DNA of 34,278 nucleotides from Thauera sp. GTDB taxonomy: Bacteria; Pseudomonadota; Gammaproteobacteria; Burkholderiales; Rhodocyclaceae. Location: the NCBI GenBank assembly GCA_017302295.1, contig JAFLDS010000030.1, forward strand, positions 1 through 34,278. The letters are read 5' to 3'. Shown here piece by piece: positions 2,598 through 16,197 of this stretch. Position numbers and translations under genes: made by a program. Below the pieces are notes generated by a model. That model ran no database searches, was not told the DNA's origin, and saw only the letters and a program-made list of their open reading frames with translations. The first letter of the stretch is position 1. Each line of letters starts with the position of its first letter.

Positions 2598-2999
2598 AAG
2601 CTGACGCCCCACTATCAAATTCGATGCGGAAAGCACTGAATGGTGTGCAGGCGTGGGGCTGGGGCGAGATCGGGTGGGAGCGTCTGGCGCATTACCATTC
2701 ACGCTCCCACTTTCCCTGAGCAGCCTGATCCGGGGCAATACGGTGCCGGCAGCCCCAGCACCGAAGCGACGCCCCATCGCCGGATGGCTGTCGTGCTCCC
2801 TCTTCGCCCTTTCTTGGGCCTACAGTGTCGGAAAAATTGACAGGTGCGATGCGCAGCAGTGGGCAGACGGCATGGAAATCCGCCTTTTTTCAATTACTTG
2901 TAAGCTGAAGGCGTGAATCTTGCTTTATCTGAGAATTGCACTTCGCTCGACGCCTCATCCGCTCGTCACCCTATTGGCGCCCAAGCGCAGGAGAAGACG
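2598..2999. other. Intergenic region upstream of the PEP-CTERM gene, no supported gene
   Basis: About 400 nt separate the hairpin from the PEP-CTERM start. Short open frames here show no domain, conserved motif or ribosome-binding site. Base composition drops towards AT-rich near 2880-2940 (a T6 run and CAATTACTTG), which is where a promoter would be expected. A TTGACA hexamer lies at 2837-2842, but no convincing -10 follows it at 17 nt, so no promoter is called. Confidence 0.6.
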
Positions 3000-3758
3000 A
3001 TGAAACGATCTGTGCTCTCGGCAGTCCTGGCCATCGGTCTGCTGACACTGGACTCTGGAAGCGTGGCCCATGCGGCGCCGCTGCGCTTGCGGCTGGACAA
3101 CATCAGCACCTCGCAGGGCGTGGTACTGACCGACAACGGGCTGAATGACCTCAGCCCCCTGGATGGTCTCATCACTTATTCGGGGAGCCTGGGCGGAAGT
3201 TTCGCAGTCAACGTGACGACGGGAACCTCAGACCCGCCACTCGTCACCACCCTTCCCAACTCCCTCGACCTGAGCAGCATCACGATCAACTCGTCGGGCA
3301 GCGGACTTCTCCGCATCACGCTGTTGCAGGATGACTATTCCGCGAACGGTGGTCTCAACCTTGTCGCCAGTCTGGGTGGCGTTCTCTCGGCGCCTGCAGG
3401 TTCGACGATCACGCTGCAGAGCTACGCAAATGGCGACAACCTGTTGCCTGACCCCGGACCCGATCAAGGTCTGGGGCTGATTGCCGCCATGCCACCACTT
3501 CCCCCGGGCAGCATCGCCGCGTTCAGCGGAGCCGGAGCCGTCTTCGGGCCGGGCGCATTTTCGGCGAGCGATTCGGCGGACTTCGCGAGCAGCGCCCAGT
3601 TCTCCCTGTTCAGCCATGTGCTCGTCAGCTTCACCGGAGCCGGCTCCATTTCCTTCGACCTGTCGCAACAGGCATCACCCGTCCCCGAACCCGCCACGCT
3701 CGCCCTTCTCGGCCTCGGCCTGGCCGGCCTGGCAGCGCCGCTGCGGCGCAAGCGTTAA
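3000..3758 (+). CDS. PEP-CTERM sorting-domain protein, exported
   Basis: This is a 252-residue protein. The ATG at 3000 is chosen because an AGGAG site precedes it and it begins a clean signal peptide (basic MKRS, a hydrophobic run, then AHAAP at about residues 22-26). The body is low-complexity and rich in Ser, Gly, Leu and Asp, as in many PEP-CTERM proteins. The C-terminus has the full tripartite sorting signal: VPEPATLALLGLG, a hydrophobic helix and a terminal RRKR cluster. Such proteins are exported, then cut or anchored by an exosortase (EpsH/XrtA type) and are associated with exopolysaccharide or floc formation in betaproteobacteria. No exosortase gene is in the window. The gene stands alone and ends 10 nt from the stop of a convergent LysR gene. 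The specific role of the body is unknown. Confidence 0.92.
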   Translation: MKRSVLSAVLAIGLLTLDSGSVAHAAPLRLRLDNISTSQGVVLTDNGLNDLSPLDGLITYSGSLGGSFAVNVTTGTSDPPLVTTLPNSLDLSSITINSSGSGLLRITLLQDDYSANGGLNLVASLGGVLSAPAGSTITLQSYANGDNLLPDPGPDQGLGLIAAMPPLPPGSIAAFSGAGAVFGPGAFSASDSADFASSAQFSLFSHVLVSFTGAGSISFDLSQQASPVPEPATLALLGLGLAGLAAPLRRKR

Positions 3759-3768
3759 GGCGCAGCGA

Positions 3769-4665
3769 CTAGCGTACCGCCTCCGTCGCCCCCGCCAGCA
3801 GGCGCTCCAAGCGCTCGATTCGATGGTGGTGCAGGGTGGTGATGGCGTAGAAGCGCTCCTGCAACTGGGCGGTCTGACCGACCCTGCAGAGGCCCCCCGA
3901 GCGCAACTCGTCCTGGACCACGACCTCGGGCAGCACGGTCAGCCAGCCGCTGTCCCTCGCGATCAGCCGGAGCATTGCCATGTCATCCACTTCGGCGCGC
4001 AGGCGCGGCTTCACGCCGGCGGTCATGCACAGGGCGTCGAACTGGGCACGCAGCACGTTGCGCCGCCCTGGCAGAGCGAGGTCCACACCATCGAGATCCT
4101 CGGGGATACGGAGCGTGCGCCCTTTCCAGACGTCCGCCGGGCCGACCAGCGAGATCGCCTGACTGCCGAGAAAGCGGCTGAGCAGGGGGCGATCCTGGTC
4201 GGCGGGCGCCGGTTCGTTGGCCAGCACGACGTCGAGCTTGTGCTGCACCAGGCGCTCCAGCAGACCTTCGAGCGGACCGGACTCCAAGGTCAGCGTGACG
4301 CCGGGGTCCAACAGCAGCGGGCGGATCCAGTTTTCCTGGTAGTTGCGCGACAGGGTTGCGACACTGCCCACGCGCACCCGGACCATGCCCTCGCTGCGTC
4401 CTTCCAGCCGTCCGAGCATCTCCTGGCTCAGGCCAAAGATGTTCTCCGCGTATGAGAACACCAGCTGGCCGGCTTCGGTCATCACCAGGCGCCGCCCTTC
4501 GCGCGCGAACAGTGCCTCGCCAAGACGCTCCTCCAATTGCTTGATCTGCGCCGATAGCGCGGACTGCGAGGTGTGCAGCTCCTGCGCGGCGCGCGTCATG
4601 TGGCCCGCCCTGGAGACACGCCAGAAGTAGAACAGGTGATGGAAGTTGAGCTGCTCCAGGTTCAT
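3769..4665 (-). CDS. LysR-family regulator of the first DAB locus
   Basis: This is a 298-residue LysR-type protein with an N-terminal winged helix-turn-helix at about residues 5-62 (MTRAAQELHTSQSALSAQIKQ spans the recognition helix), a linker helix and a C-terminal effector-binding domain. The opening FHHLFYFWRV resembles the NhaR branch. The gene is divergent from dabB with a 97-nt shared promoter region. A paralogue of exactly the same length sits in the same position beside the second dabBA pair (13586-14482). LysR genes adjacent to DAB genes are known in autotrophs. The expected role is control of dabBA in response to inorganic-carbon supply, and of its own transcription. The effector is unknown. 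The start is fixed by the paralogue. Confidence 0.93.
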   Translation of the reverse strand: MNLEQLNFHHLFYFWRVSRAGHMTRAAQELHTSQSALSAQIKQLEERLGEALFAREGRRLVMTEAGQLVFSYAENIFGLSQEMLGRLEGRSEGMVRVRVGSVATLSRNYQENWIRPLLLDPGVTLTLESGPLEGLLERLVQHKLDVVLANEPAPADQDRPLLSRFLGSQAISLVGPADVWKGRTLRIPEDLDGVDLALPGRRNVLRAQFDALCMTAGVKPRLRAEVDDMAMLRLIARDSGWLTVLPEVVVQDELRSGGLCRVGQTAQLQERFYAITTLHHHRIERLERLLAGATEAVR

Positions 4666-4762
4666 CGTTCTGTTTTCTGTATTAATTCTTTCTTATCAAT
4701 GAATTTTACAGAACGCATCAGGATCCGCACCATAGGGGCAGTCAATTTCGAACCGGCTCACC
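4666..4762. promoter_or_regulatory. Divergent LysR/dabB promoter with inverted repeat operator (copy 1)
   Basis: The 97-nt region holds an inverted repeat GTTCTGT (4667-4673) and ACAGAAC (4708-4714), 34 nt apart. Between the arms lies an AT-rich stretch containing TCAATGAATTTT. The same arms, spacing and inner stretch recur at 14484-14531 before the second dabB. A CGCACCATA block at 4727-4734 is also shared. This is the expected location for LysR binding. The operator call is inference from conservation. Confidence 0.7.
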
Positions 4763-6346
4763 ATGGATACGCTCAACTCCCTGATGCTGGCCGGCGCTCT
4801 GGCGCCGGTCGCCCTGCTGACTTTGGCCGCGCTCGCGTCGCTGGCCGGAAGCCCCCCTGCGGCGCGGCTGTGGAGGCGCTTCGGCCTGCTGTCGTGGAGC
4901 GCGCTCGGTTGTGTGCTGGCAACGCTCGTCCTGACGGCGACCTCGTCCGCGGCCAGCCCCGCTCAACCCTCGGCCTGGATCTCCGTCAGCCCCTTCGGCG
5001 CCTGGATGGCTGCCCTGGTGCAACTGCTGGGGACGGTGATCGGCGTGTTCTCGTCACGCTACCTGCAGGGCGAGCAGGGGCAGGCGCGCTATGTCGCCGC
5101 CTTCGCCGGAGTGCTGGTGTCGGTTCATGTGCTGTTGCTCGCCAACCACTGGCTGGCGCTGATCGCCGCCTGGGCGATGATCGGCGCGGCGCTGCGGCAC
5201 CTGCTCTGCTTCTATGTGGACCGCCCCTTCGCCCTGCTCGCCGCGCACAAGAAGCGTCTTGCCGACCGGCTGGCGGACGCCTTGCTCGTGTGTGCCGCCG
5301 CCCTGGCGTGGCGGGAAGTGGGCAGCGGCACGCTCTCCGATCTGTGGCAGCACCTCGCCCAGGTTGGCGCCACGCTCCCGCTGCAGCTCAGCGCGGTGTG
5401 CCTCGTCCTCGCGGTGATCCTGCGCACTGCGCTGTTCCCCGCACATGGCTGGCTGATTCAGGTGATGGAAGCACCGACCCCGGTTTCCGCCCTGCTGCAC
5501 GCCGGCGTGGTCAACCTCGGCGGCTACGTGCTGATCCGCTTCGCCCCGTTGCTCGATGCGGCGAGTGCGGCGCGCTGGCTGCTCGTGGCGTTCGGCCTGG
5601 CCACCGCGCTGCTGGCCGGCCTGGTAATGCTGACGCGGGTCAGCGTCAAGGTGCAGCTGGCCTGGTCCACCGTGGCGCAAATGGGCTTCATGGCGCTCGA
5701 GTGCGCGATGGGGCTCTACACCCTGGCCGCGCTGCACCTGATCGGCCATTCGCTGTACAAGGCGCACGCCTTCCTGTCGGCCTCGTCCGTGGTGCAGCAC
5801 AGCAAGCTGCAGATGATGCGCGGCGGTGCCGTGTACGCGCCCGCCAGCCTGCTGATGGCGCCGGCAGCGGCCCTCGCCTGCGTCGCGCTGATTCAGTCTT
5901 TCGCCACCGGCGCGACCTGGCCCGGGTGGTGGAACGGCGTGCTGGCGCTCGCCTGGGCGCCCCTGCTGTGGCTGCCTGCTGCGCGTGGTGGCGATGCTCG
6001 CAGGGCGTGGTCGGGCGCGGCGACGGGCTTGGCGCTGGTCGCCGGGCTCACGCTGGCGGCCTCCCTGGGGCATGGGCTGCCGTTCGGGGTGAAGGACGCG
6101 CCGGACCATATGGCGGGCATCGCCAGCCTGTGCGGCATGGCCGCGATGTACCTCTTCCTGATCACCCTGCAACTACGCCCGCAAGGCCTGGCCGCATGGC
6201 GGCGCTGGAGTTACGCAGGTTTCTACATCGATGAGTTCTACACCCGGCTGACGCTGCGGCTGTGGCCGACGCGCTGGACCCCGGCTGACGCGCCGCCGCA
6301 GCGTCAGACGATGGTCGGCGCCATTGCTCAAACCGCTGCCAAGTGA
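4763..6346 (+). CDS. dabB: DabB, NuoL-like membrane subunit of DAB inorganic-carbon pump (copy 1)
   Basis: This is a 527-residue polytopic membrane protein with about 13 hydrophobic segments, related to the proton-channel subunits NuoL/MrpA. It keeps the family core: HGWLIQVMEAPTPVSALLHAG (His228 and His246) followed by NLGGYVLIR, and further on LHLIGHSLYKAH (His325, Lys333). DabB is the cation-conducting partner of DabA. Together they form an energy-coupled pump that accumulates bicarbonate in the cytoplasm. It differs from complex I subunits by its stand-alone pairing with a DUF2309 gene, here 22 nt downstream. The paralogue at 14580-16163 has exactly the same length. The ATG at 4763 matches the paralogue's start. 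Transcription probably starts in the divergent region shared with LysR. Confidence 0.95.
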   Translation: MDTLNSLMLAGALAPVALLTLAALASLAGSPPAARLWRRFGLLSWSALGCVLATLVLTATSSAASPAQPSAWISVSPFGAWMAALVQLLGTVIGVFSSRYLQGEQGQARYVAAFAGVLVSVHVLLLANHWLALIAAWAMIGAALRHLLCFYVDRPFALLAAHKKRLADRLADALLVCAAALAWREVGSGTLSDLWQHLAQVGATLPLQLSAVCLVLAVILRTALFPAHGWLIQVMEAPTPVSALLHAGVVNLGGYVLIRFAPLLDAASAARWLLVAFGLATALLAGLVMLTRVSVKVQLAWSTVAQMGFMALECAMGLYTLAALHLIGHSLYKAHAFLSASSVVQHSKLQMMRGGAVYAPASLLMAPAAALACVALIQSFATGATWPGWWNGVLALAWAPLLWLPAARGGDARRAWSGAATGLALVAGLTLAASLGHGLPFGVKDAPDHMAGIASLCGMAAMYLFLITLQLRPQGLAAWRRWSYAGFYIDEFYTRLTLRLWPTRWTPADAPPQRQTMVGAIAQTAAK

Positions 6347-6368
6347 ATCGAAAACTCCGGAGCCTCAA

Positions 6369-8972
6369 ATGACGACAGTTCTTGCCGCTACCCAGGACCC
6401 AGGCCCCGCCCACGCCCCCAAGCCGGCCGCGCCCGATACCGCCGGGCGACTGACGGTGCTGATCGATGCCGCCTGCGAGCAGGCCTGCCAGGCGATCGCG
6501 CCGGCCTGGCCGCTCGACCGCGCGATCGCGGTCAATCCGCACTGGGGACGGATCGACCGGCCGGTGCGCGAGGTCGCCGCGCGCATGGCGGTGCTCGGCG
6601 ACATCCGCGTGTTCCCGTCCCGCGACGACCTGAGAGAGGCGTGGGACGCCGGACGCATCGGCCCGGCCGATCTCGCCCATGCCCTGGCGAAACTGCCAGC
6701 GGCGCAGGCGGCGGCCCTGAGCGAAGCGCAGTGCATCGATGCCCTGCGCGCGGCGCCCGTACTGCCGCGGCTGCCCCTGCTGATCGACGTGCTCGACGAT
6801 GATCCGCAACGCCATGCCCGCCTGTCGTGGCGCCAGGCGATCACCCATCAGGTGAGCCAGACCTGCGCGGCCTATTTCGACGAACACCAGGCCGACTGGC
6901 AGCCCGAGCGCAGCCAGGGGCTGTATGCGTTCTGGCGCGACACCCTCACCCATGATCACGGCATTGCAGCGCTGATGGGCCTGCCCGCGCTCGGCAGCGC
7001 ACTGCAGGCGCTGCCGCCCACGCGCGCGGATACCGAGCGCTGGGTGCTGCAGCGCCTGGGCCTGCCCGAGGCGGTGTGGGCGGATTACCTGGAAGCGGTG
7101 CTCCTCACCGTCAATGGCTGGGCCTCGTGGTGCGCCTACCTGGGTTGGGAGGCCCGCCTCGCCGGCAGCAGCGACACGCACCTGCGCGACCTGCTGGCCA
7201 TCCGCCTCGCCTGGGGTGCGATCCTGCTCGAATGCAAGGACGACGCCGCCACCCGCCTGGCCTTTGCCGCCCTGCTCGCCGAATGGATCCACGCGCCGGC
7301 CGTGCTGCGCCGGGCGGAAGACCTGCTCCTGGTCGACGAGGTCTGGCAGCTTGCGCTGGAGGCGGGCTACCAGCGGCAGCTGGCGCACAAGCTCGGCCAG
7401 GCAGCCGGCGCCCGGGCGCCCGACTCGCCGCCCAGGGCCGAGGTCCAGGCCGCGTTCTGCATCGACGTGCGCAGCGAGCCGATGCGCCGGGCGCTCGAAG
7501 CCGCCTCGCCGGCCCTCCGGACGATCGGCTTTGCCGGCTTCTTCGGCCTTCCGCTGGCCTACACGCCGCTCGCAACCACGGCACGCCGGCCGCAGCTGCC
7601 GGGACTGCTCGCCCCGGCGCTCGAGGTGACCGACCACATCGGGCTGCCTGCCGACGCGCACGGCGGGTCCCTGCAGAGCCTGAACGACGCTGCCAGCCTG
7701 GCGCGGCAGCGCCACTTCGCCCGTTCGGGGCAGGCGCTGGCCGGCAGCCGCTGGCCCAGCGCAGCCTTCTCCTTCGTCGAAGCTGCAGGGGTGGCCTACC
7801 TCGGCAAGCTCGCGCGCTGGCTGAAGCCGTCCGCCGGGGGGCGCGCGCGCGAGAACCTGGCCGGCCTGCCCGCGCGCTATCGCGCAGTGTGCCGCCCCAG
7901 CTTCAACGGTCTCGACATGGATGCCAAGGTCGCACTGGCGGCGCGCGTCCTGCACGCAATGGGGCTCGATCGCGACCTGGCGCCGCTGGTGCTGCTGGTT
8001 GGGCACGGCAGCCAGAGCAGCAACAACGCTCACGCCTCCGCGCTGGATTGCGGCGCCTGCTGCGGCCAGACGGGCGAGGTGAACGCGCGCGTGCTGGCGC
8101 AACTGCTGAACGAGCCGGACGTGCGCGCCGGCTTACGGGCCAAGGGCGTCGTCATCCCGCAACAGACGGCATTCGTCGCCGCCCTGCACAACACCACCAC
8201 CGACGAGATCGAGGGATTCGACCTCGACCTGCTGCCGCCGGATGCGCGAGCGCGGTGGGAGCGCCTGCAGACCGTGTTCGCCGCCGCCGGCGCTCAGGTC
8301 CGCCGCGAGCGCGCACCGCGTCTTGGCCTCGACCCGCGCGCGGGGAAAGACGCTCTGCTCGCGCAGTTGCGTCGCCGCGCCAACGACGGCGCGCAGACGC
8401 GTCCCGAATGGGGACTGGCCGGCAATGCGGCCTTCCTCATCGCGCCGCGCCACCGCAGCCAGGGCGTGGCGCTCGAAGGCCGCTGCTTCCTGCACGACTA
8501 CGACGCCGGCCAGGATGCCGACGGCAGCCTGCTGGAGCTGCTGATGACCGCGCCCATGCTCGTCACGCACTGGATCAACTGGCAGTACCACGCCTCCACC
8601 TGCGCCCCCGCACGCCTGGGCAGCGGCAACAAGCTGCTGCACAACGTCGTCGGCGGCCGCATCGGCGTGTTCGAAGGCAACGGCGGCGACCTGCGCATCG
8701 GGCTGGCCCGGCAGTCCGTGCACGACGGCGCGCGCTGGGTGCACGAGCCGCTGCGCCTGACCGTCGTCGTCGATGCGCCGCAACAGGCGATCGACCGCGT
8801 GATTGGGCAGCATGCGGTCGTGCGGCAACTGCTCGACCATGGCTGGCTGCACCTGTGGCGCTTCGAGGGCGCGAGCCTGGTCTGCTACCGCGATGGCAGC
8901 TGGCAGACGCTGGGGCTGGACGCTGCGGATCGGCCGGCGCCGGCATCGACGACCGCGGCGCCCGCGGCCTGA
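6369..8972 (+). CDS. dabA: DabA, DUF2309/UPF0753 beta-carbonic-anhydrase-like subunit (copy 1)
   Basis: This is an 867-residue DUF2309 protein. An in-frame ATG at 6324 overlaps dabB, but 6369 is preferred: the CCGGAGCCTCAA leader just before it matches the CCGGAGCTCAAC before the paralogue's ATG at 16198. The zinc-site residues known from characterised DabA are visible: Cys364 and Asp366 in AFCIDVRSEP, His546 in LLVGHGSQSSNN, and Cys561 in ALDCGACCGQTG. The His-to-Cys spacing of 15 matches the Halothiobacillus protein. DabA is thought to hydrate CO2 to bicarbonate one-way, coupled to cation flow through DabB. It is a peripheral subunit on the cytoplasmic face. It diverges from the paralogue mostly at the N-terminus, near residues 350-360 and around 425-450. 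Confidence 0.96.
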   Translation: MTTVLAATQDPGPAHAPKPAAPDTAGRLTVLIDAACEQACQAIAPAWPLDRAIAVNPHWGRIDRPVREVAARMAVLGDIRVFPSRDDLREAWDAGRIGPADLAHALAKLPAAQAAALSEAQCIDALRAAPVLPRLPLLIDVLDDDPQRHARLSWRQAITHQVSQTCAAYFDEHQADWQPERSQGLYAFWRDTLTHDHGIAALMGLPALGSALQALPPTRADTERWVLQRLGLPEAVWADYLEAVLLTVNGWASWCAYLGWEARLAGSSDTHLRDLLAIRLAWGAILLECKDDAATRLAFAALLAEWIHAPAVLRRAEDLLLVDEVWQLALEAGYQRQLAHKLGQAAGARAPDSPPRAEVQAAFCIDVRSEPMRRALEAASPALRTIGFAGFFGLPLAYTPLATTARRPQLPGLLAPALEVTDHIGLPADAHGGSLQSLNDAASLARQRHFARSGQALAGSRWPSAAFSFVEAAGVAYLGKLARWLKPSAGGRARENLAGLPARYRAVCRPSFNGLDMDAKVALAARVLHAMGLDRDLAPLVLLVGHGSQSSNNAHASALDCGACCGQTGEVNARVLAQLLNEPDVRAGLRAKGVVIPQQTAFVAALHNTTTDEIEGFDLDLLPPDARARWERLQTVFAAAGAQVRRERAPRLGLDPRAGKDALLAQLRRRANDGAQTRPEWGLAGNAAFLIAPRHRSQGVALEGRCFLHDYDAGQDADGSLLELLMTAPMLVTHWINWQYHASTCAPARLGSGNKLLHNVVGGRIGVFEGNGGDLRIGLARQSVHDGARWVHEPLRLTVVVDAPQQAIDRVIGQHAVVRQLLDHGWLHLWRFEGASLVCYRDGSWQTLGLDAADRPAPASTTAAPAA

Positions 8973-9060
8973 AGCCCGGCTGCGGGATCGACGAAGGGCT
9001 GCTCGCCACGGCCGATGAGGGCGCTTGGCGAGGCGGGCCTGTTCTTGCTCGCGGTCCTTC

Positions 9061-9071
9061 TGGCCTACAAT
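9061..9071 (+). promoter_or_regulatory. Promoter -10 candidate for leader RNA 1
   Basis: TGGCCTACAAT, with TACAAT as a near-consensus -10, lies 90 nt after dabA. The same 11-mer occurs at 11525-11535 before the second leader, whereas most of the sequence around it differs. A weak TTGCTC lies 15 nt upstream, so the -35 is poor. The site would give a transcript with a leader of roughly 415 nt. Confidence 0.5.
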
Positions 9072-9163
9072 GGCGCCCTCTCATCGAACCGAGCCCCCAC
9101 GTGTTCATGCCGCTTCGCCGTCGCTTCGCCCGTTCCCGCGCCCCGCTGCGTGCCGGCGGGCGG

Positions 9164-9354
9164 GTGTGCGCGCGCTGCATGATCTCGCCAATTCGCGAAC
9201 TCGCGACCCAGCTCGCATTCAAGGTCACAGGGTCTCCCGCCGTGCTTTCCCAGGCCGTGCGGGGCCACCACCGGAGCTGACGCTCCACCCCCGCACGGCA
9301 CCTTGCCCCGGACGCGCTCGGCGCGCCTCCGGTTCAATGTGCAGCTGCGCGGGG
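9164..9354 (+). ncRNA. Structured 5' leader RNA of the hexad-repeat gene (copy 1)
   Basis: This is an ungapped block shared with 11641-11831. From 9174 to 9354 there are 12 mismatches in 181 nt by hand count. Predicted structure: GACCC (9205-9209) with GGGTC (9230-9234); a perfect 11-bp stem GCCGTGCGGGG (9254-9264) with CCCCGCACGGC (9289-9299), enclosing a 5-bp GGAGC/GCTCC hairpin with loop TGAC; then CCGGA (9308-9312) with TCCGG (9328-9332) around an inner CGCGC/GCGCG stem. Between the copies the second pair of that last stem changes C-G to G-C. Mismatches in the one open frame spanning both copies fall mostly on codon positions 1 and 2, arguing against coding. Function is unknown: riboswitch-like control, a processed RNA or translation control are all possible. 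I recognise no named RNA family. Confidence 0.65.
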
Positions 9355-9493
9355 ACACGTTCCGACTCCCGCTGATAGCCCCCTTCGGCGGTACGGCCCC
9401 AGTCCATCCGGAGCCCCCCGGCATTTCCCCGCAAGGCTGCCTAACGAACGCCGCGCTGCATGCGCCGGCGCTGTGTCGCACGAGGAAGATGCA

Positions 9494-10366
9494 ATGGTTC
9501 TCACAAGAAGTTTCGTCAGGGCGAAGCGGCCCTGTACCGATGGATTCCGCTGGTTCGTCCGCCAGTTCGGCGAAGGCGGCAACTACCAGCGCATGATCGA
9601 CGAGATGGTGGCCGCGGGCCGGGTCGGCGATGCCTGCTGGCTGCTCGATCAATTCGGCCCCACCGACGAGGTGCGCAGGGTCGACGCCATCGACGACGAT
9701 GCGATGGTCTTCGCCGGCACGCTGGAGGTACGCGGCAATGTGGACGTGGAGGGCATCGTTCGCGTCGGCCGCTCGCTGCATGTCGGCGGCGGCCTGCGCG
9801 TGGGTGGCGATCTGAATGTCAACGCCGATCTGCGCGTGGAAGGCGGCGTGCGCGCCGAATCACGCCTGCAGGTGGGCGGCGATCTGCGCGCCGGCTGGGG
9901 TGTCGATTGCGCGGGTGAGCTGCGATGCGACGGCGAGTTGCGCACCGGCTGGGAGCTGCATTGCGCAGGCCCGCTGCGCATCGCCGGCAACGCCTTCGTC
10001 GGCCTCGATCTGCACGCCGACGAAGGGATACGCTGCGGCAAGGGCCTGCACGCGGGCGGCGACATCGTGGTCGCGACCAGCCTGCACGCCCGGCACGGCA
10101 TCCTTGCCGGCGGATCGATCCGGGCGGGCCTGCACCTGGAGGCCGGCTGGGGGATCAAGGCGGGCACCGACATCACGGCGGCAGGCGCCATTCGGGCGGG
10201 TGAGAGCCTCATCGCCGGCGAGACCATCCGGGCAGGCGACGGCTACGGCGTGTTTGCCGGCCTCTCCGTGCCGGTGGCGGCATGGGAGAGCAGCGCCCGG
10301 GTGAGCGCCAGCGCGCAGCCCGACGGCCTGATGAGCGGCCACTGGGCCAGCGCTGCAGCGTGCTGA
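9494..10366 (+). CDS. Hexad-repeat solenoid protein, bactofilin-like, unknown function (copy 1)
   Basis: This is a 290-residue protein. The ATG at 9494 follows GAGGA and gives exactly the same length as the paralogue at 11975-12847; a GTG at 9473 is less likely. Residues 1-60 form a conserved head (RAKRPCTDGFRWFVRQFGEG, then GRVGDACWLLDQFGPTDE) that I do not recognise. From about residue 81 to 254 the chain is roughly 29 consecutive six-residue repeats in perfect register, of the form Gx[LIV]x[VAC]G. This predicts a regular beta-solenoid as in bactofilins and other polymer-forming proteins. There is no signal peptide or membrane helix, so a cytoplasmic scaffold or filament is plausible. A short C-terminal tail follows. 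It is preceded by the structured leader and followed 13 nt later by a GNAT remnant. Confidence 0.75.
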   Translation: MVLTRSFVRAKRPCTDGFRWFVRQFGEGGNYQRMIDEMVAAGRVGDACWLLDQFGPTDEVRRVDAIDDDAMVFAGTLEVRGNVDVEGIVRVGRSLHVGGGLRVGGDLNVNADLRVEGGVRAESRLQVGGDLRAGWGVDCAGELRCDGELRTGWELHCAGPLRIAGNAFVGLDLHADEGIRCGKGLHAGGDIVVATSLHARHGILAGGSIRAGLHLEAGWGIKAGTDITAAGAIRAGESLIAGETIRAGDGYGVFAGLSVPVAAWESSARVSASAQPDGLMSGHWASAAAC

Positions 10367-10379
10367 AGGAGGAACGGAC

Positions 10380-10550
10380 ATGACCGCGACCACCCTCTGC
10401 CCACGTGCCGCGGTCTCCTTCCCGCAGCCGCCTCCGCTGGGCCTGCTGCGCGCCGTCCTCGGCACCCGCACGGTGCTGCTCGGCCAAGGATGGAGCGTCG
10501 CGGAACTGCAGCGGCGTGGCGTGTTCCATGAGCCAAGAGCGATTGCCTGA
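10380..10550 (+). pseudogene. GNAT-like gene remnant with large in-frame internal deletion
   Basis: A 56-codon frame starts after AAGGAGGAACGGAC, nearly the same leader as that of the intact GNAT gene at 12861. Its first codons (MTATTLCPRAAVSFP) match the start of the intact protein (MTATLLHPSAAFALP). Its second half (TRTVLLGQGWSVAELQRRGV) matches the end (TRMLLAGRGWTFAALHKRGL, about residues 215-234). About 185 central residues, including the acetyl-CoA motif, are missing, but the frame is intact. It is either a decayed copy left by duplication of the solenoid-GNAT unit or a retained micro-protein. It cannot be an active acetyltransferase. Confidence 0.82.
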
Positions 10551-10614
10551 AACCATGGTCTCGCTCCATTCTTGCAGCCCCCCTCCCCCCTCCCACCTGT
10601 AACGAGGCCCTCGC

Positions 10615-11502
10615 ATGTCCGACCTTACGTCCTGCAACTCGCCCTACATCCCGCCCCGCACCTGGACCTGGAACAAGGCCAGCGGCGGACGTTTCGCCAC
10701 CATCAACCGTCCGGTGGCCGGCGCCACGCACGACAAGGCGCTGCCGCGCGGCCGACATCCGCTGCAGCTGTATTCGCTGGCGACGCCCAACGGCGTGAAA
10801 GTCGGCGTGATGCTGGAAGAACTGCTCGCGCTCGGCCATGCCGGCGCCGAGTACGACGCCTGGCTGATCCGCATCAACGAAGGCGACCAGTTCGGCAGCG
10901 GCTTCGTCGCGGTGAATCCCAACTCCAAGATCCCCGCGCTGCTCGACTGCAGCGGCGAGACGCCGGTGCGGGTGTTCGAGTCGGGCGCGATCCTGCTGTA
11001 CCTGGCGGAGAAGTTCGGCGCCTTCGTGCCGACCGAGCCGGCGCGGCGCGCGGAATGCCTGTCGTGGCTGTTCTGGCAGATGGGCAGCGCGCCCTACCTG
11101 GGCGGCGGCTTCGGCCACTTCTATGCCTACGCGCCGACGAAGATCGAATACGCCATCGACCGCTTCGCGATGGAAGCGAAGCGCCAGATGGATGTGCTCG
11201 ACCGCCGGCTGGCCGAGAGCCGCTACATTGCCGGCGACGACTACACGATCGCCGACATGGCGATCTGGCCGTGGTACGGCGCGCTGGCGAAAGGCCTGCT
11301 GTACGACGCCGGCGAGTTCCTGCAGGTGGGCGAATACCGGCACGTGCTCCGCTGGGCCGACGAGATCGGCGCGCGCCCGGCGGTGCAGCGCGGGCGCATG
11401 GTGAACCGCGTGTTCGGGCCGCTGGAGGAGCAGTTGCACGAGCGCCACGATGCGACCGACTTCGCGACGCGCACCGCCGACAAGCTGCAGGCTCCGGACT
11501 GA
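10615..11502 (+). CDS. yghU: YghU-type glutathione transferase / disulfide-bond reductase
   Basis: This is a 295-residue protein, slightly longer than E. coli YghU (about 288), and recognisable along its whole length. It has the long YghU N-terminal extension with TWTWNKASGG and INRPVAG, the thioredoxin-fold segment LYSLATPNGVKV (active-site region near residues 57-60), the cis-proline segment NPNSKIPAL (101-109), ESGAILLYLAEKFG, the all-helical domain with FLGGGFGHFY-like YLGGGFGHFY, and the C-terminal QLHERHDATDF. YghU proteins bind two glutathiones and reduce disulfides or organic hydroperoxides. It interrupts the two leader-solenoid-GNAT modules and has no obvious functional link to them. 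A probable ribosome-binding site, ACGAGG, lies upstream. It is the last gene before the promoter of leader 2. Confidence 0.95.
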   Translation: MSDLTSCNSPYIPPRTWTWNKASGGRFATINRPVAGATHDKALPRGRHPLQLYSLATPNGVKVGVMLEELLALGHAGAEYDAWLIRINEGDQFGSGFVAVNPNSKIPALLDCSGETPVRVFESGAILLYLAEKFGAFVPTEPARRAECLSWLFWQMGSAPYLGGGFGHFYAYAPTKIEYAIDRFAMEAKRQMDVLDRRLAESRYIAGDDYTIADMAIWPWYGALAKGLLYDAGEFLQVGEYRHVLRWADEIGARPAVQRGRMVNRVFGPLEEQLHERHDATDFATRTADKLQAPD

Positions 11503-11524
11503 TCGCGTGCCAGATCCTCGCATC

Positions 11525-11535
11525 CTGGCCTACAA
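11525..11535 (+). promoter_or_regulatory. Promoter -10 candidate for leader RNA 2
   Basis: This is the same TGGCCTACAAT 11-mer as at 9061-9071, here 22 nt after the yghU stop and 106 nt before the conserved RNA block (copy 1: 93 nt). Conservation of this word outside the conserved RNA block supports a promoter role. The -35 is not clear. Confidence 0.5.
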
Positions 11536-11640
11536 TACGGGCCAACTGTCTGATTCGCCGACTGATTCGATTAGCTCATGCCCATGCCAGCCCGCCGCCG
11601 CTTTGTCCACCTTCGCGCTCCCTCGCGCGCCGGTGGCTGC

Positions 11641-11831
11641 GTGCGTGCGCGCTGCATGATCTCGCCACTGCGCGATCTCGCGACCCAGCTCGCGTTCAAG
11701 GTCACAGGGTCTCCCGCCGTGCTTTCCCAAGCCGTGCGGGGCCACCACCGGAGCTAAAGCTCCACCCCCGCACGGCACCTTGCCCGGGACGCGCGCGCCG
11801 CGCCTCCCGTTCAATGTGCAGCCGCGCGGGG
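11641..11831 (+). ncRNA. Structured 5' leader RNA of the hexad-repeat gene (copy 2)
   Basis: This is the counterpart of 9164-9354 at a constant offset of 2477 nt. The 11-bp stem (11731-11741 with 11766-11776) and the inner GGAGC/GCTCC hairpin (11750-11754 with 11759-11763) are identical in paired bases. Only the tetraloop changes, to TAAA. The last stem is CGGGA (11785-11789) with TCCCG (11805-11809), a compensated C-G to G-C swap relative to copy 1. The inner part of that stem is one base pair shorter. The block ends about 144 nt before the start codon of the second solenoid gene, and the remaining leader retains shared patches such as CCCGCAAGGCTGCCT. Confidence 0.65.
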
Positions 11832-11974
11832 CTCCATCCAGACGCCCGCTCATCGACCGCTTCGGCGGCACGGCACCGGTCCAACCGGAGCGAGCGTCCC
11901 AAGTCATCTCCCGCAAGGCTGCCTTCCAGGCGCCGCGCTGCATGCGCGGCAATGCGAAGCACGAGGGTGATGCA

Positions 11975-12847
11975 ATGGTTCTCACAAGAAGTTTCGTCAG
12001 GGCGAAGCGGCCCTGCACCGATGGATATCGCTGGTTCGTCCGCCAGTTCGGCGAAGGCGACAACTACCAGGACATGCTCGACGCCATGGTGGCGGCAGGC
12101 CGCGTGGGCGATGCCTGCTGGCTGCTCGAACAGTTCGGCCCCACCGACGAGTTGCGGGTGGTTGACGCCATCGAGGCCGATGCGGTCGTGTTCGCCGGCA
12201 CATTGGAAGTGCGCGGCGGCGTGGACGTCGACGGCATCGTGCGCGTCGGGCGTTCGCTGCATGTCGGCGCGGGCGTGCGCGCGAGCGGCGAGATGCGGAT
12301 CGGCGCCGATCTGCGGGTGGAGGGTGGCGTGCGCGCCGAGGGCAAGCTGCTGGTCGGCGGCGACCTGCGCGCGGGCTGGGGCGTGGACTGCGCGGACGAA
12401 CTGCGCTGCGAGGGCGAGTTGCGCGTGGGCTGGGAGCTGCACTGCGTCGGCCCGCTGCGTGTCGCCGGCAATGCCTTCGTCGGCCTCGACGTCCAGGCCG
12501 ATGAAGGCGTGCGCTGCGGGAAAGGCCTGCAGGCAGGCGGCAGCATCCAGGTCGCAACCAGCCTGCACGCCAGACACGGCATCCTTGCCGCCGGCTCGAT
12601 CGAAGTCGGACTGCATCTCGAAGCGGGCTGGGGGGCGAAGGCCGGAGGGACGATCGGCGCACGGGGCGCGATCCGTGCCGGCGAAAGCCTGACGGCCGGC
12701 GAAGCCATCCGTGCGGGCAACGGCTACGGCGTATTCGCCGGTCTGGCCGTACCGATGGAAGCGTGGGAGAACAGCGCCCGCGTCAGCGCCTCTGCGCCAC
12801 CGGATGGGCTGATGAGCGGCTGGTGGGCCGGCCCCGAGCCGTGTTGA
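11975..12847 (+). CDS. Hexad-repeat solenoid protein, bactofilin-like, unknown function (copy 2)
   Basis: This is the 290-residue paralogue of the protein at 9494-10366, equal in length, with a nearly identical head (MVLTRSFVRAKRPCTDG) and the same ungapped series of about 29 hexads (for example LRVEGG, LLVGGD, LRAGWG, IRAGES). It ends in a matching tail with SARVSASAPPDGLMSG. The ATG at 11975 follows GAGGGTGATGCA, aligned with the site of copy 1. Substitutions between the copies keep the inward-facing aliphatic positions, which argues that both proteins are under selection to fold. There is no export signal. The intact GNAT gene begins 13 nt downstream, so this copy probably shows the full module. 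Confidence 0.75.
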   Translation: MVLTRSFVRAKRPCTDGYRWFVRQFGEGDNYQDMLDAMVAAGRVGDACWLLEQFGPTDELRVVDAIEADAVVFAGTLEVRGGVDVDGIVRVGRSLHVGAGVRASGEMRIGADLRVEGGVRAEGKLLVGGDLRAGWGVDCADELRCEGELRVGWELHCVGPLRVAGNAFVGLDVQADEGVRCGKGLQAGGSIQVATSLHARHGILAAGSIEVGLHLEAGWGAKAGGTIGARGAIRAGESLTAGEAIRAGNGYGVFAGLAVPMEAWENSARVSASAPPDGLMSGWWAGPEPC

Positions 12848-12860
12848 GGAGGAAACGGAC

Positions 12861-13589
12861 GTGACCGCAACCCTGCTTCACCCCTCAGCCGCCTTTGCGC
12901 TTCCCCTTGCCTTCGACCTGTCCCTGCCCAAGCCGCCGCGCCTGGACCTGCTGCCTGCCGCGCTCGTCAATCGCATCCGCGAGCGGGTGCAGGCCACGCG
13001 GCTGGAACTGCGCATCGACGTCAATCGCCCTGAAGAGGACATCGAGACCGAGCTCGATACCCTCCATCGCCGGCTCCACACCCCGGCGGACGCGATGCAC
13101 GCCTGCGCCCTGCTGCCGACGCTGCAGCCCGGACTGGCCTTCCATCACCGCGAGGCGGACGGCGAGCACTACATCTACGTCGAGGACGTGGCGTGCGGCC
13201 GCCTCGCCGGCTACACCGTGTTCAACCGCCTGATCGAAGTCGACCGCCGCACCGACCGCCATGTGCGCTCACCGCACTCCAAGTACGCCCCCGCCTACCA
13301 GGGGCGCGGCATCGCCAGCGCGGTGTATGAGTGGGCGCTGGGCCGCGGCCTTTGCCTGGTTAGCGGCGCGCGGCAGTCCGACGGCGCGCATGCCCTGTGG
13401 CACGCGCTGGCCCGCCGGCATCCGCTGCGCTGGGTTGCGCTTCGCACCCGGCGCATGCAAGACCTCGGCGACGACATCCCCGCAGCAGCCCGCGACGCGC
13501 TCGACACGCGGATGCTGCTCGCCGGACGGGGATGGACCTTCGCGGCGCTGCACAAGCGTGGCTTGCTGCAGCCGACGGCGAGCGCCTAG
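12861..13589 (+). CDS. GNAT-like N-acetyltransferase linked to the solenoid gene
   Basis: This is a 242-residue protein starting at a GTG after AGGAGGAAACG, 13 nt behind the solenoid gene, so the two are almost certainly co-transcribed. The GNAT signature is KYAPAYQGRGIASAVYEWAL (residues 141-160), with the acetyl-CoA-binding QGRGIA at 147-152. The preceding beta strands (EHYIYVEDV, GRLAGYTVFNRLIEV) fit the fold. The N-terminal 80 residues are a charged helical extension. It should transfer an acyl group to an amine; the target is unknown, and the adjacent solenoid protein is a reasonable guess but only inference. The stop overlaps by 4 nt the stop of the convergent LysR gene. A deleted copy of this gene sits at 10380-10550. 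Confidence 0.75.
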   Translation: MTATLLHPSAAFALPLAFDLSLPKPPRLDLLPAALVNRIRERVQATRLELRIDVNRPEEDIETELDTLHRRLHTPADAMHACALLPTLQPGLAFHHREADGEHYIYVEDVACGRLAGYTVFNRLIEVDRRTDRHVRSPHSKYAPAYQGRGIASAVYEWALGRGLCLVSGARQSDGAHALWHALARRHPLRWVALRTRRMQDLGDDIPAAARDALDTRMLLAGRGWTFAALHKRGLLQPTASA

Positions 13590-14482
13590 CGGGCCGCTTC
13601 GGACGAGTCGGCCAGAAGGCGTTCCAGCCGCTCGACTCGATGACGGTGCGGCGTGGTGATGGCGTAGAAGCGCTCCTGCAGCTGGGCGGACTGCCCGACC
13701 CTGACGAGGCTGCCCGCCCGCAGTTCGTCCTGCACCACGACCTCCGGCAGCACCGTCAGCCAGCCGCTGTCGCGTGCGATCAGGCGGAGCATCGCCATGT
13801 CGTCGACTTCGGCGCGCAGTCGCGGCTTCACGCCGGCGGTAATGCACAGCGCATCGAATTGAGGGCGCAATACATTGCGCGGCCCGGGCAGTGCGAGGTC
13901 AGCCCCGTCGAGATCCTCGGGGATCCTCAGCGTGCGACCTCGCCACACCTCCGCCGGGCCGACCAGCGAGATCGCCTGGCTGCCGAGGAAGCGGCTGAGC
14001 AGCGGGCGGTCCGGGTCGGCAGGCACCGGCTCGTTGGCCAGCACGACGTCGAGCTTGTGCTGCAGCAGGCGTTCTAGCAACCCTTCCAGCGGGCCGGATT
14101 CCAGCGTCAGCGTCACGCCCGGGTCCTGCAGCAGCGGGCGGATCCAGTTCTCCTGGTAGTTGCGCGACAGCGTGGCCACGCTGCCGACTCGCACCCGGAC
14201 CATGCCTTCGCTGTGCCCGTCCAGCCGCCCGAGCATTTCCTGCCCCAGCCCGAAGATGTCCTCCGAGTAGGAAAACACCAGCTGGCCGGTCTCGGTCATC
14301 ACCAACCGCCGCCCCTCGCGCTCGAACAGCGCCTCGCCGATCCGTTCCTCCAGCTGCTTGATCTGAGCCGACAGCGCCGACTGCGAGGTGTGCAGTTCCT
14401 GCGCAGCGCGCGTCATGTGCCCCGTACGGGCGACACGCCAGAAGTAGAACAGGTGATGAAAGTTGAGTTGCTCGAGATTCAT
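13586..14482 (-). CDS. LysR-family regulator of the second DAB locus
   Basis: This is a 298-residue LysR-type protein, the same length as the regulator at 3769-4665 and near-identical in the N-terminal DNA-binding half (TRAAQELHTSQSALSAQIKQ). An upstream ATG at 14503 would add seven residues; 14482 is preferred because it matches the paralogue and puts the start at the edge of the shared inverted repeat. It is divergent from dabB2. Because the helix-turn-helix regions and operators of the two loci are so alike, each regulator may bind both promoters. Differences concentrate in the effector domain and C-terminus, so the signals sensed or their affinities may differ. Confidence 0.93.
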   Translation of the reverse strand: MNLEQLNFHHLFYFWRVARTGHMTRAAQELHTSQSALSAQIKQLEERIGEALFEREGRRLVMTETGQLVFSYSEDIFGLGQEMLGRLDGHSEGMVRVRVGSVATLSRNYQENWIRPLLQDPGVTLTLESGPLEGLLERLLQHKLDVVLANEPVPADPDRPLLSRFLGSQAISLVGPAEVWRGRTLRIPEDLDGADLALPGPRNVLRPQFDALCITAGVKPRLRAEVDDMAMLRLIARDSGWLTVLPEVVVQDELRAGSLVRVGQSAQLQERFYAITTPHRHRVERLERLLADSSEAAR

Positions 14483-14579
14483 TGTTCTGTTTTTTATATC
14501 CATTTATTCATTTCAATGAATTTTACAGAACATCTACGGACGCGCACCATAAAGGCACTTGATTTTTAAGGGTCCCGAC
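14483..14579. promoter_or_regulatory. Divergent LysR/dabB promoter with inverted repeat operator (copy 2)
   Basis: GTTCTGT (14484-14490) and ACAGAAC (14525-14531) are again 34 nt apart, as in copy 1. Between them is a second dyad, ATTCATT-TC-AATGAAT (14506-14521), which contains a TTC-N8-GAA form fitting LysR-type T-N11-A sites; copy 1 keeps only its right half. The shared CGCACCATA block is at 14541-14551. The region is 97 nt long, the same as copy 1. Confidence 0.7.
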
Positions 14580-16163
14580 ATGGATCTGCACACCCTCTTT
14601 CCCCTGGCCGGCGCCCTGCTGCCGGTCGCCCTGATGTCCATCGCCCTGCTGATTTCCCTCGCGGGCGGTGCCCGCGCTGAGTCGTTGTGGAAACGGTTCA
14701 GCCTTCTTTCATGGGGAGCGCTCATTTGCACGCTCGCGACGCTGGCGTGGCCGGCGTTCTACCCGGCGGCGAACGCCGCGCCGCTATCGGCCTGGCTGGC
14801 GGTCAGCCCCTTCGGCGCCTGGATGGCTGCGCTGGTACAACTGCTGGGGACGGTGATCGCCGGCTTCTCATCGCGCTACTTGCAGGGTGAGCGCGGACAG
14901 GCGCGCTATGTCGCCGCCTTTGCCGGCGTGCTCGCGTCGGTTCATCTGCTGCTGCTCGCCAACCACTGGCTGGTGCTGATCGCCGCCTGGGCGACGATCG
15001 GCGCGGCGCTGCGGCATCTGCTGTGCTTCTATGCGGATCGGCCCTTCGCCCTGCTCGCTGCGCACAAGAAGCGCCTTGCCGACCGGCTGGCGGACGCCTT
15101 TCTGCTGGTCGCCGCCGCCCTGGCCTGGCGGGAAGTGGGCAGCGGCACGCTTTCCGATCTGTGGCAGCACCTCGCCCAGGTCGGCGCCACGCTCCCGCTG
15201 CAGCTCAGCGCGGTGTGCCTCGTCCTCGCGGTAATCCTGCGCACGGCCCTGTTTCCGGCGCACGGCTGGCTGATCCAGGTGATGGAAGCGCCGACGCCGG
15301 TTTCTGCGCTGCTGCACGCGGGCGTGGTCAACCTCGGCGGCTACGTGCTGATCCGCTTCGCCCCGCTGCTCGAAGCGGCAAGCCCGGCGCGCTGGCTGCT
15401 GGTCGCCTTCGGCCTGGCCACCGCGCTGCTGGCCGGCCTGGTGATGCTGACGCGGATCAGCATCAAAGTGCGGCTGGCCTGGTCCACCGTGGCGCAGATG
15501 GGCTTCATGGCGCTCGAATGCGCGCTGGGGCTCTACTCCCTGGCCGCGCTGCACCTGATCGGCCATTCGCTGTACAAGGCGCACACTTTCCTCGCGGCCT
15601 CGACGGTGGTGCAGCACAACAAGCTGCAGATGATGCGCGGCCACGTTGCGCCTTCGCCGGCCAGCCTGCTGCTCGCACCGGCAGCAGCCTTCGCCTGCGT
15701 CGCGCTGATCCAGCTTGTCGCCACGGGCACGAGCTGGCCGTGGTGGTGGCAGGGTGTGCTGGCCTTCGCCTGGGCGCCCTTGCTGTGGCTGCCGCTTGCG
15801 CAAGGTGGCGGGCTGCGCGCGGCCGCATCGGGCGCGATGGCAGGCCTGGCCATGGTGGCGGGCCTCACGGCTGCGGCAACGCTGGCGCACGCCCTGCCGT
15901 TCGGCGTCACTGACGCGCCGGAACACCTCGCGGGCATCGCCACCCTGGTCGGCATGGCGGCGATGTACCTCTTCCTCGTCACCCTGCAACTGCGCCCGCA
16001 AGGCCTGGCCGCATGGCGGCGCTGGAGTTACGCCGGGTTCTACATCGACGAGTTCTACACCCGCCTCGCCTTGCGGCTGTGGCCCACGCGGTGGACTGCG
16101 ACTGCGCCGTCCGCGCCTCTAACGCCGATGGTCGGCGCCCTGCCTCAAACCGCCGCGAAGTAA
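14580..16163 (+). CDS. dabB: DabB, NuoL-like membrane subunit of DAB inorganic-carbon pump (copy 2)
   Basis: This is a 527-residue paralogue of the protein at 4763-6346, with identical length and the same polytopic layout. The ATG at 14580 follows AAGGG and is aligned with the copy-1 start; a TTG at 14559 is in frame but less likely. The ion-channel core is kept: HGWLIQVMEAPTPVSALLHAG, NLGGYVLIR and LHLIGHSLYKAHTF. Divergence from copy 1 is strongest in the first 65 residues and in the helices of the last 150 residues, while the central region has long identical runs. It should pair with DabA2, 34 nt downstream. Cross-pairing with DabA1 is possible given the conservation, but cannot be read from sequence. 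Confidence 0.95.
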   Translation: MDLHTLFPLAGALLPVALMSIALLISLAGGARAESLWKRFSLLSWGALICTLATLAWPAFYPAANAAPLSAWLAVSPFGAWMAALVQLLGTVIAGFSSRYLQGERGQARYVAAFAGVLASVHLLLLANHWLVLIAAWATIGAALRHLLCFYADRPFALLAAHKKRLADRLADAFLLVAAALAWREVGSGTLSDLWQHLAQVGATLPLQLSAVCLVLAVILRTALFPAHGWLIQVMEAPTPVSALLHAGVVNLGGYVLIRFAPLLEAASPARWLLVAFGLATALLAGLVMLTRISIKVRLAWSTVAQMGFMALECALGLYSLAALHLIGHSLYKAHTFLAASTVVQHNKLQMMRGHVAPSPASLLLAPAAAFACVALIQLVATGTSWPWWWQGVLAFAWAPLLWLPLAQGGGLRAAASGAMAGLAMVAGLTAAATLAHALPFGVTDAPEHLAGIATLVGMAAMYLFLVTLQLRPQGLAAWRRWSYAGFYIDEFYTRLALRLWPTRWTATAPSAPLTPMVGALPQTAAK

Positions 16164-16197
16164 GTATCGAGCGCAATCCCCTGCCCCGGAGCTCAAC

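Follow-up and report, generated by a model that had tools for sequence, protein, structure and literature searches.

Upstream of two copies of a solenoid (hexad-repeat) gene in Thauera sp. lies a recurring block of DNA that has the appearance of a structured leader RNA, and the question is what such a leader is and how it might work. The original prediction, made from the letters of the window (the whole 34,278-nt stretch of contig JAFLDS010000030.1 analysed here), was an undescribed cis-regulatory RNA. A structured, duplicated and covarying leader without an Rfam class indeed stands, but its solely non-coding character does not, as a conserved upstream open reading frame (uORF) traverses the block and ends in the loop of one of its hairpins (Table 1).

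A small reading frame that ends in a hairpin loop

The two blocks (9174-9354 and 11651-11831) align without gaps and with exactly the 12 mismatches in 181 nt that had been counted before. Their likeness reaches further, with 84% identity over 9106-9405 and 86% over 9466-9765, and both are part of a larger duplication in the window. The 11-bp stem (9254-9264/9289-9299) and its inner 5-bp hairpin (9273-9277/9282-9286) proposed at the outset are borne out, and the alignment of both copies contains the compensatory exchange from C9309-G9331 to G11786-C11808; in 42 homologues this column pair (109/142 of alignment A5) is G-C in 19, A-U in 16, G-U in 5, C-G in 1 and unpaired in 1. The distance of about 240 nt to the solenoid ATG is correct if counted from the 5' stem arm (9254 to 9494; 11731 to 11975). 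The claim that the mismatches ignore codon positions was mistaken: it had been made in the frame 9025-9375, which is not the conserved frame and was rejected. In the frame 9101-9280 the six mismatching bases within the uORF are those of ATT/CTG (I/L, two bases), GAA/GAT (E/D), the silent GCA/GCG and CAG/CAA, and TGA/TAA, which keeps the stop. The two tetraloop mismatches described earlier (TGAC against TAAA) are an exchange of stop codons, TGA/TAA, and of the base that follows; the uORF peptide ends in ..LAFKVTGSPAVLSQAVRGHHRS, and its stop codon forms the first three bases of the tetraloop.

Table 1. Features of the two leader copies and of the genes behind them (positions in the window).
Feature	Positions	Strand	Remark
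-10-like box TACAAT, copy 1	9066..9071	+	pattern only; context TGGCCTACAAT
uORF 1, leader peptide, 59 codons from GTG, stop TGA	9101..9280	+	in-frame ATG at 9107 possible
uORF segment matching P0 5' side (anti-Shine-Dalgarno arm) of Burkholderiaceae	9242..9252	+	by correspondence; P0 here putative
P1 5' arm, codes for A-V-R-G	9254..9264	+	11-bp stem
P1b inner hairpin, uORF stop TGA (9278-9280) in loop	9273..9286	+	both copies
P1 3' arm	9289..9299	+	11-bp stem
P2 stem-loop, 9298-9312 with 9328-9342	9298..9342	+	conserved non-pairing x.x position
P3 long-range helix, GCAGCT 9341-9346 with GGCTGC 9435-9440	9341..9440	+	
P4 hairpin preceding solenoid start, imperfect in copy 1	9449..9470	+	
Solenoid gene 1, 290 aa	9494..10366	+	YdhT-like N-terminus, FapA/bactofilin-like repeats, all below curated cut-offs
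GNAT gene 1 remnant, 56 codons	10380..10550	+	pairwise alignment with copy 2
-10-like box TACAAT, copy 2	11531..11536	+	pattern
uORF 2, leader peptide, 59 codons from ATG, stop TAA	11578..11757	+	conserved frame in homologues
P1 of copy 2, 11731-11741 with 11766-11776	11731..11776	+	copy comparison
P1b of copy 2, stop TAA 11755-11757 in loop	11750..11763	+	copy comparison
P2 of copy 2	11775..11819	+	homologue alignment
P3 of copy 2, 11818-11823 with 11917-11922	11818..11922	+	
Solenoid gene 2, 290 aa	11975..12847	+	second copy
GNAT-like acetyltransferase gene, 242 aa, intact	12861..13589	+	gene type also in Cupriavidus operons

That the frame is coding can be judged from 64 leaders (61 leaders without L066, plus L123, L124 and L126; L146-L162 lie outside this set, and some of them repeat loci already in it, e.g. 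L158 and L063). These had been selected by peptide, by models built from such matches and by a DNA pattern, of which the peptide selection alone is frame-aware. Read in the uORF frame, 64 of 64 leaders have their first stop codon after A-V-L in the P1 loop, which is true of 2 and 0 leaders in the other two frames, and the 36 upstream codons are open in all 64, compared with 34 and 54. This holds over spacings of 36, 39, 48, 51 or 54 nt between A-V-L and the stop, which is TGA in 56 leaders, TAA in 5 and TAG in 3. Within the 51-nt core of the Rhodocyclaceae type, third positions vary in V, S, P, A and V codons; 21 distinct single-base variants are synonymous and 19 are not, where 12.0 synonymous ones are expected (P = 0.0024, kinship ignored), and the same test gives P = 0.62 and 0.92 in the other frames. 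The excess is not significant over a wider 99-nt block (P = 0.074) and absent from 16 Cupriavidus leaders (P = 0.72), and the coding claim therefore rests mainly on the conservation of frame and stop together with the core. Judged by its sequence, the leader thus has the conserved coding uORF that a uORF-dependent translational attenuator requires in front of the gene it regulates.

Two Burkholderiaceae leaders, L161 and L162, both with solenoid and GNAT genes downstream, have uORFs that end early, in ..RHFLLARLS and ..RHFLLAVLS respectively, with the stop directly 5' of the P1 5' arm. Their common peptide end R-H-F-L-L-A-x-L-S is further support for a coding uORF. Since they stop after L-S, not every leader places its stop in the loop, and A-V-R is not necessarily a signal in the peptide; the core conserved in the peptide may extend no further than A-V-L-x, with A-V-R kept for stem P1. 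This early-stop form is a possible second layout of the same leader. A variant core, A-G-L-F-Q-A-V-R, occurs in the true leader L157.

Pattern matching located a -10-like box similar to that of the window in 39 of the 64 leaders, 26 of which have their first in-frame start codon 33-42 nt further on. The box of copy 1 is absent from the promoters listed by a promoter/terminator scan of the region, and the uORF start codon has no strong Shine-Dalgarno sequence. The conserved peptide core contains a cluster of rare codons (9227-9247 and 11704-11724): in 22 genes of the window, ACA makes up 2.8% of Thr codons, GGG 11% of Gly, TCT 1.0% of Ser and CTT 3.8% of Leu. No replacement of CTT was found in the leaders read.

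Distribution, structure and downstream genes

A search with the peptide matched 20 of 199 family genomes at E ≤ 0.01, and 17 of them, the genome of the window included, carry the leader (L024, L025, L027 and an extra match, L028, were read as chance and dropped before the counts). A covariance model built from 18 leaders gave matches in 42 of 395 genomes of the family, spread over 12 of the 68 genera sampled and including 21 of the 22 genomes listed as the window's own genus; one match (L127 in genome G310) is false, and 41 genomes were kept. A member of the own genus, G103, shares its leader with Thauera aminoaromatica S2, in agreement with a reading of that genus as Thauera. Among 369 genomes of the class the same model matched the genome of the window alone, and the single further match of a broader model, R2 (L163), was read as false and dropped. 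Applied to 200 genomes of the Cupriavidus family, R2 matched 17, of which 15 carry the leader on reading (L159 and L160 were dropped), some with divergent uORF ends such as ..IPAVLLSAVRGVRD. A DNA pattern run over GTDB contigs returned 57 stretches with 49 true leaders (L060, L066, L067, L072, L090, L095, L112 and L115 were dropped), from Thauera, Zoogloea, Azoarcus, Pseudothauera, Parazoarcus, Rhodocyclus, Azonexus, Azospira, Oryzomicrobium, Accumulibacter (two), several odd bins, one Burkholderiales bin and 16 Cupriavidus. L063 is absent from alignment A3 and present in A4, and was grouped with the Rhodocyclaceae-type core blocks. In Candidatus Accumulibacter 66-26, two leaders (L076, L083) occur in one genome, and no solenoid match was found behind L076.

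That no named RNA class had been recognised in the block agrees with an Rfam search of the whole window, which returned nothing at gathering score; 9000-9500 has zero matches even at E ≤ 10. Seven leader loci likewise gave no gathering-score match, except for a SECIS element distant from the leader of L122. This selenocysteine signal (SECIS_3, L122:832-890, minus strand, 84 bits, above the gathering score) lies on the leader-bearing stretch of a related genome. We found no description of the leader in Rfam 15 or in the open-access literature searched.

Covariation among homologues, on which the original prediction had proposed to judge the structure, is present as compensatory changes in the stems of 42 homologues. 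Placed on 42 full-length Rhodocyclaceae leaders, P1, P2, P3 and P4 together leave 96.3% of cells paired, and both sides have changed in 9 pairs and 60 cells, where shuffles give 4.3 and 14.8 (kinship ignored) and slid controls at most 7 pairs and 19 cells. P2 supplies 41 of these 60 cells, with 4 of its 12 pairs changed on both sides, and contains an x.x position without a standard pair in 42 of 42 rows (CC 32, CT 4, AC 3, and CA, TC and TT 1 each; two rows carry a gap beside it). One of four tested P3 pairs goes from C-G to U-A in 4 of 42 leaders, and three of five tested P4 pairs are changed on both sides in homologues. P1 is almost invariant, and covariation therefore says little about it. 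The first GCCGTGC copy, inside A-V-L, was rejected as partner of the P1 3' arm: it mutates to GCAGTGC or GCCGTAC in some genomes with the arm unchanged. A scan of 8950-12000 detected no intrinsic terminator (G+C-rich stem plus T run) in 9101-9494 or 11578-11975; its single terminator-like site, 9023-9038, lies upstream of the uORF, and 1.3 are expected by chance.

All 44 true leaders with at least 2 kb of downstream sequence (L066 left out) precede a solenoid gene, a GNAT-like gene or both, the GNAT-like gene within 2.6 kb in 36 and the solenoid gene within 0.8 kb in 29. Within the family of the window most loci have the solenoid gene behind the leader, as do three loci outside this family (L097, L161, L162). 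A tie to hexad-repeat genes as such, as first supposed, is not supported, because the leader precedes a GNAT-like gene and no solenoid gene in those Cupriavidus loci that were read as well as in Azoarcus taiwanensis. In the latter species (L013 / L106) the GNAT-like gene comes directly after the leader. Most Cupriavidus loci read have, immediately behind the leader, a membrane-type micro-ORF of 24 codons that is preceded by a good Shine-Dalgarno sequence, and after it the GNAT-like gene. In L070, L071, L078, L113 and other Cupriavidus loci the 24-codon ORF has a hydrophobic stretch (e.g. MPSIYRRTLCAMAALVILYLALNA), and it likely encodes a small membrane protein. A literature search on ydhT returned nothing useful.

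The downstream gene is GNAT-like as judged from weak Pfam matches and a predicted structure. Acetyltransf_1 matches 15 of 23 homologues weakly at E ≤ 0.1, with the window copy below the cut-off, and a sequence search of the PDB gave no match at E ≤ 0.1. The structure predicted for the protein has a mean pLDDT of 83.3, and the best Foldseek matches listed for it in the PDB are GNAT enzymes, the first with E 1.4e-4, probability 1.00 and TM 0.33 (query) and 0.42 (target). Relative to the intact gene at 12861-13589, GNAT gene 1 has retained N- and C-terminal parts and lost the middle.

Genes for a LysR regulator, a DabB-like protein and DabA, of the inorganic carbon uptake type, occur twice around the leader-solenoid units (3769-8972 and 13586-18747); among L060-L116, DabB/DabA genes stand beside the leader only in L086 (DabB, where the contig ends) and L110. 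The protein encoded at 2913-3758 ends in VPEPATLALLGLGLAGLAAPLRRKR, which resembles a PEP-CTERM sorting signal.

Predicted pairing of the uORF with a downstream Shine-Dalgarno sequence

In unconstrained folds of Burkholderiaceae leaders, the uORF segment GCTTTTCCTGG pairs with CCAGGAGAAAGCC, the Shine-Dalgarno sequence of the micro-ORF, and this predicted helix, P0, closes a junction over P1 and P2. At least 6 expected P0 pairs form in 14 of 16 Burkholderiaceae and in 18 of 42 Rhodocyclaceae leaders. Compared with shuffled Shine-Dalgarno regions, the P0 energy is no better in Rhodocyclaceae (mean z -0.3, against -1.1 in Burkholderiaceae). All P0 tests cover leaders other than L157, L161 and L162.

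Where the uORF arm varies in Burkholderiaceae (CTTTTCCTGG, CTTTTCCAGG, CTTTCCCTCG, CTTCTCTCAG, CTTCTCCCCG), the Shine-Dalgarno arm tends to change alongside. Over 14 arm pairs, cognate arms give -14.6 kcal/mol and swapped arms -12.8, and 10 of 20,000 permutations are as good; the corresponding test in Rhodocyclaceae gives 1 of 5,000 (kinship ignored in both). In a scan of 23 windows the two strongest co-variation signals in Burkholderiaceae fall on the P0 segment (z -3.5 and -4.0; next -2.1). The strongest signal in Rhodocyclaceae falls there as well (z -3.1; next -2.1), with an unremarkable pairing energy. Covariation of P0 by columns is thin: a single sequence of 15 has one pair changed on both sides, and two of the slid controls outscore the proposed pairing.

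A ribosome modelled on A-V-L raises the accessibility of the Shine-Dalgarno/start region from 0.31 to 0.42 in 21 Burkholderiaceae leaders, compared with 0.32 for a control site, and the gain exceeds 0.1 in 11 of 21 leaders, in 8 with a ribosome at the stop codon and in 1 at the control site. The stop-codon ribosome opens the site as much (0.424 versus 0.419 on A-V-L), and the folding model thus does not single out a pause at A-V-L. In 42 Rhodocyclaceae leaders the ribosome on A-V-L leaves accessibility unchanged (0.347 to 0.353; control 0.360), and P0 is missing from the minimum-energy fold of both window copies with 100 nt of extra upstream sequence. The switch step is accordingly likely in Burkholderiaceae, which these results support, and support in the lineage of the window is weak or negative.

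A probable attenuator and its alternatives

We consider it probable that the leader is a conserved uORF fused to a structured 5' leader, and that it acts as a translational attenuator of an operon of solenoid gene and/or micro-ORF followed by the GNAT gene. Leaders of this type commonly serve as switches that respond to the movement of ribosomes. Transcription would start just upstream of the uORF, a few bases behind 9071 and 11536 to judge from the -10-like boxes. Unhindered passage of a ribosome over the uORF would let P2 refold together with P1, whose loop contains the stop codon; in Burkholderiaceae, the V-L-x codons of the uORF would pair with the Shine-Dalgarno sequence of the next ORF and close it. 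A ribosome paused on A-V-L-x would cover this segment, and the Shine-Dalgarno sequence would be opened. Support at the level of the sequence consists of the coding frame, the stop in the loop throughout the main set, the covariation of P2, P3 and P4, and the co-variation of the P0 arms in Burkholderiaceae. From these we infer that the uORF is translated, that ribosomes pause on it and that an inducer exists. The leader with its uORF and structure is well supported and the attenuator step likely in Burkholderiaceae. For the Thauera type we infer the final step by homology; folding of Rhodocyclaceae leaders does not support sequestration of the solenoid start.

Drug-inducible attenuators such as those of ermC and cat combine a leader peptide with sequestration of a Shine-Dalgarno sequence and its release by a stalled ribosome. 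The leader described here is similar in its peptide and in the sequestration and release proposed for it; unlike in those systems, nothing points to an antibiotic as the signal or to the GNAT gene as a resistance gene. The proposed kind of attenuator is that of the toiL uORF of topAI-yjhQ-yjhP in Escherichia coli, whose coding sequence base-pairs with the Shine-Dalgarno sequence of the gene downstream, a pairing that stalled ribosomes open (PMC12121999). The likeness is one of proposed mechanism, a uORF segment predicted in Burkholderiaceae to pair with a Shine-Dalgarno sequence. In contrast to toiL, the Thauera uORF ends inside a conserved hairpin, as do those of the main set, precedes other genes, and would stall ribosomes by analogy. 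Among 'RNA motifs' that are uORFs, the nearest precedent is the ilvB-II motif of Corynebacterium: first found as a structured RNA, it turned out to contain a conserved uORF whose peptides have many branched-chain residues, and the mechanism proposed for it is transcription attenuation (PMC10272879). Unlike the ilvB-II leaders, the Thauera peptide has no run of branched-chain codons and its leader no terminator.

Other readings of the locus differ in how much they explain. That upstream DNA was simply carried along in a recent duplication and has no function of its own would fit two copies lying within a larger duplication, but it is refuted by the homologues, as leaders with structure and frame kept occur in 12 of 68 sampled family genera and in Cupriavidus; we give this reading next to no credence. 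A ligand-binding riboswitch or a protein-binding leader RNA, traversed by an incidental ORF, is a rather unlikely alternative, which would account for the covarying P2, P3 and P4, for the nearly invariant bases of P2 with a non-standard mismatch in every one of the 42 rows, and for a P1 that hardly varies even where it is non-coding (L161, L162). It leaves unexplained that all 64 stops fall in the P1 loop in one frame only, that the core has a synonymous excess and that TGA, TAA and TAG exchange at one site, and the lack of any Rfam match over 9000-9500 speaks against it too.

Rho-dependent control, in which uORF translation and the stems would gate access of Rho to the long stretch before the solenoid gene, appears similarly improbable. 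In copy 1 the solenoid start lies 213 nt beyond the uORF stop, which would offer such a stretch, and toiL/topAI couples a uORF with Rho termination (PMC12121999), but in Cupriavidus the micro-ORF comes almost immediately after P2. Less likely still is attenuation in response to a shortage of amino acids, sensed through the rare codon CTT and the likewise rare ACA and TCT. CTT is present in 42 of 42 unique core blocks (41 of the window's family and L063) and in further matches read, and the usage of CTT, ACA and TCT in the window's genes is as low as given above; however, the two window peptides have no run of codons for one amino acid, the leader has no intrinsic terminator, conserved rare codons may be retained for the RNA sequence, and many loci were found by a pattern that itself contains CTT.

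With the translational attenuator as the preferred reading, the leader would be of the toiL/topAI kind, and we found no previous description of it in Rfam or the open-access literature searched. It is an example of a convincing, covarying 'non-coding RNA' that doubles as the 3' end of a very small conserved gene whose stop codon lies at the tip of a hairpin. Because the parts of the switch are laid out, the signal and the role of the acetyltransferase operon in Thauera, Zoogloea, Azoarcus, Accumulibacter and Cupriavidus are directly testable by reporters. More tentatively, the peptide core ending in A-V-L-[S/F/L] might be a new nascent-chain sensing or arrest motif of Betaproteobacteria, which would hold the ribosome on a metabolite or stress cue and thereby open an acetyltransferase operon in two families. 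If so, the A-V-R that follows would be kept for stem P1, as L161 and L162 suggest by stopping after L-S, and an arrest motif would have been kept across two families that swapped the gene between leader and acetyltransferase.
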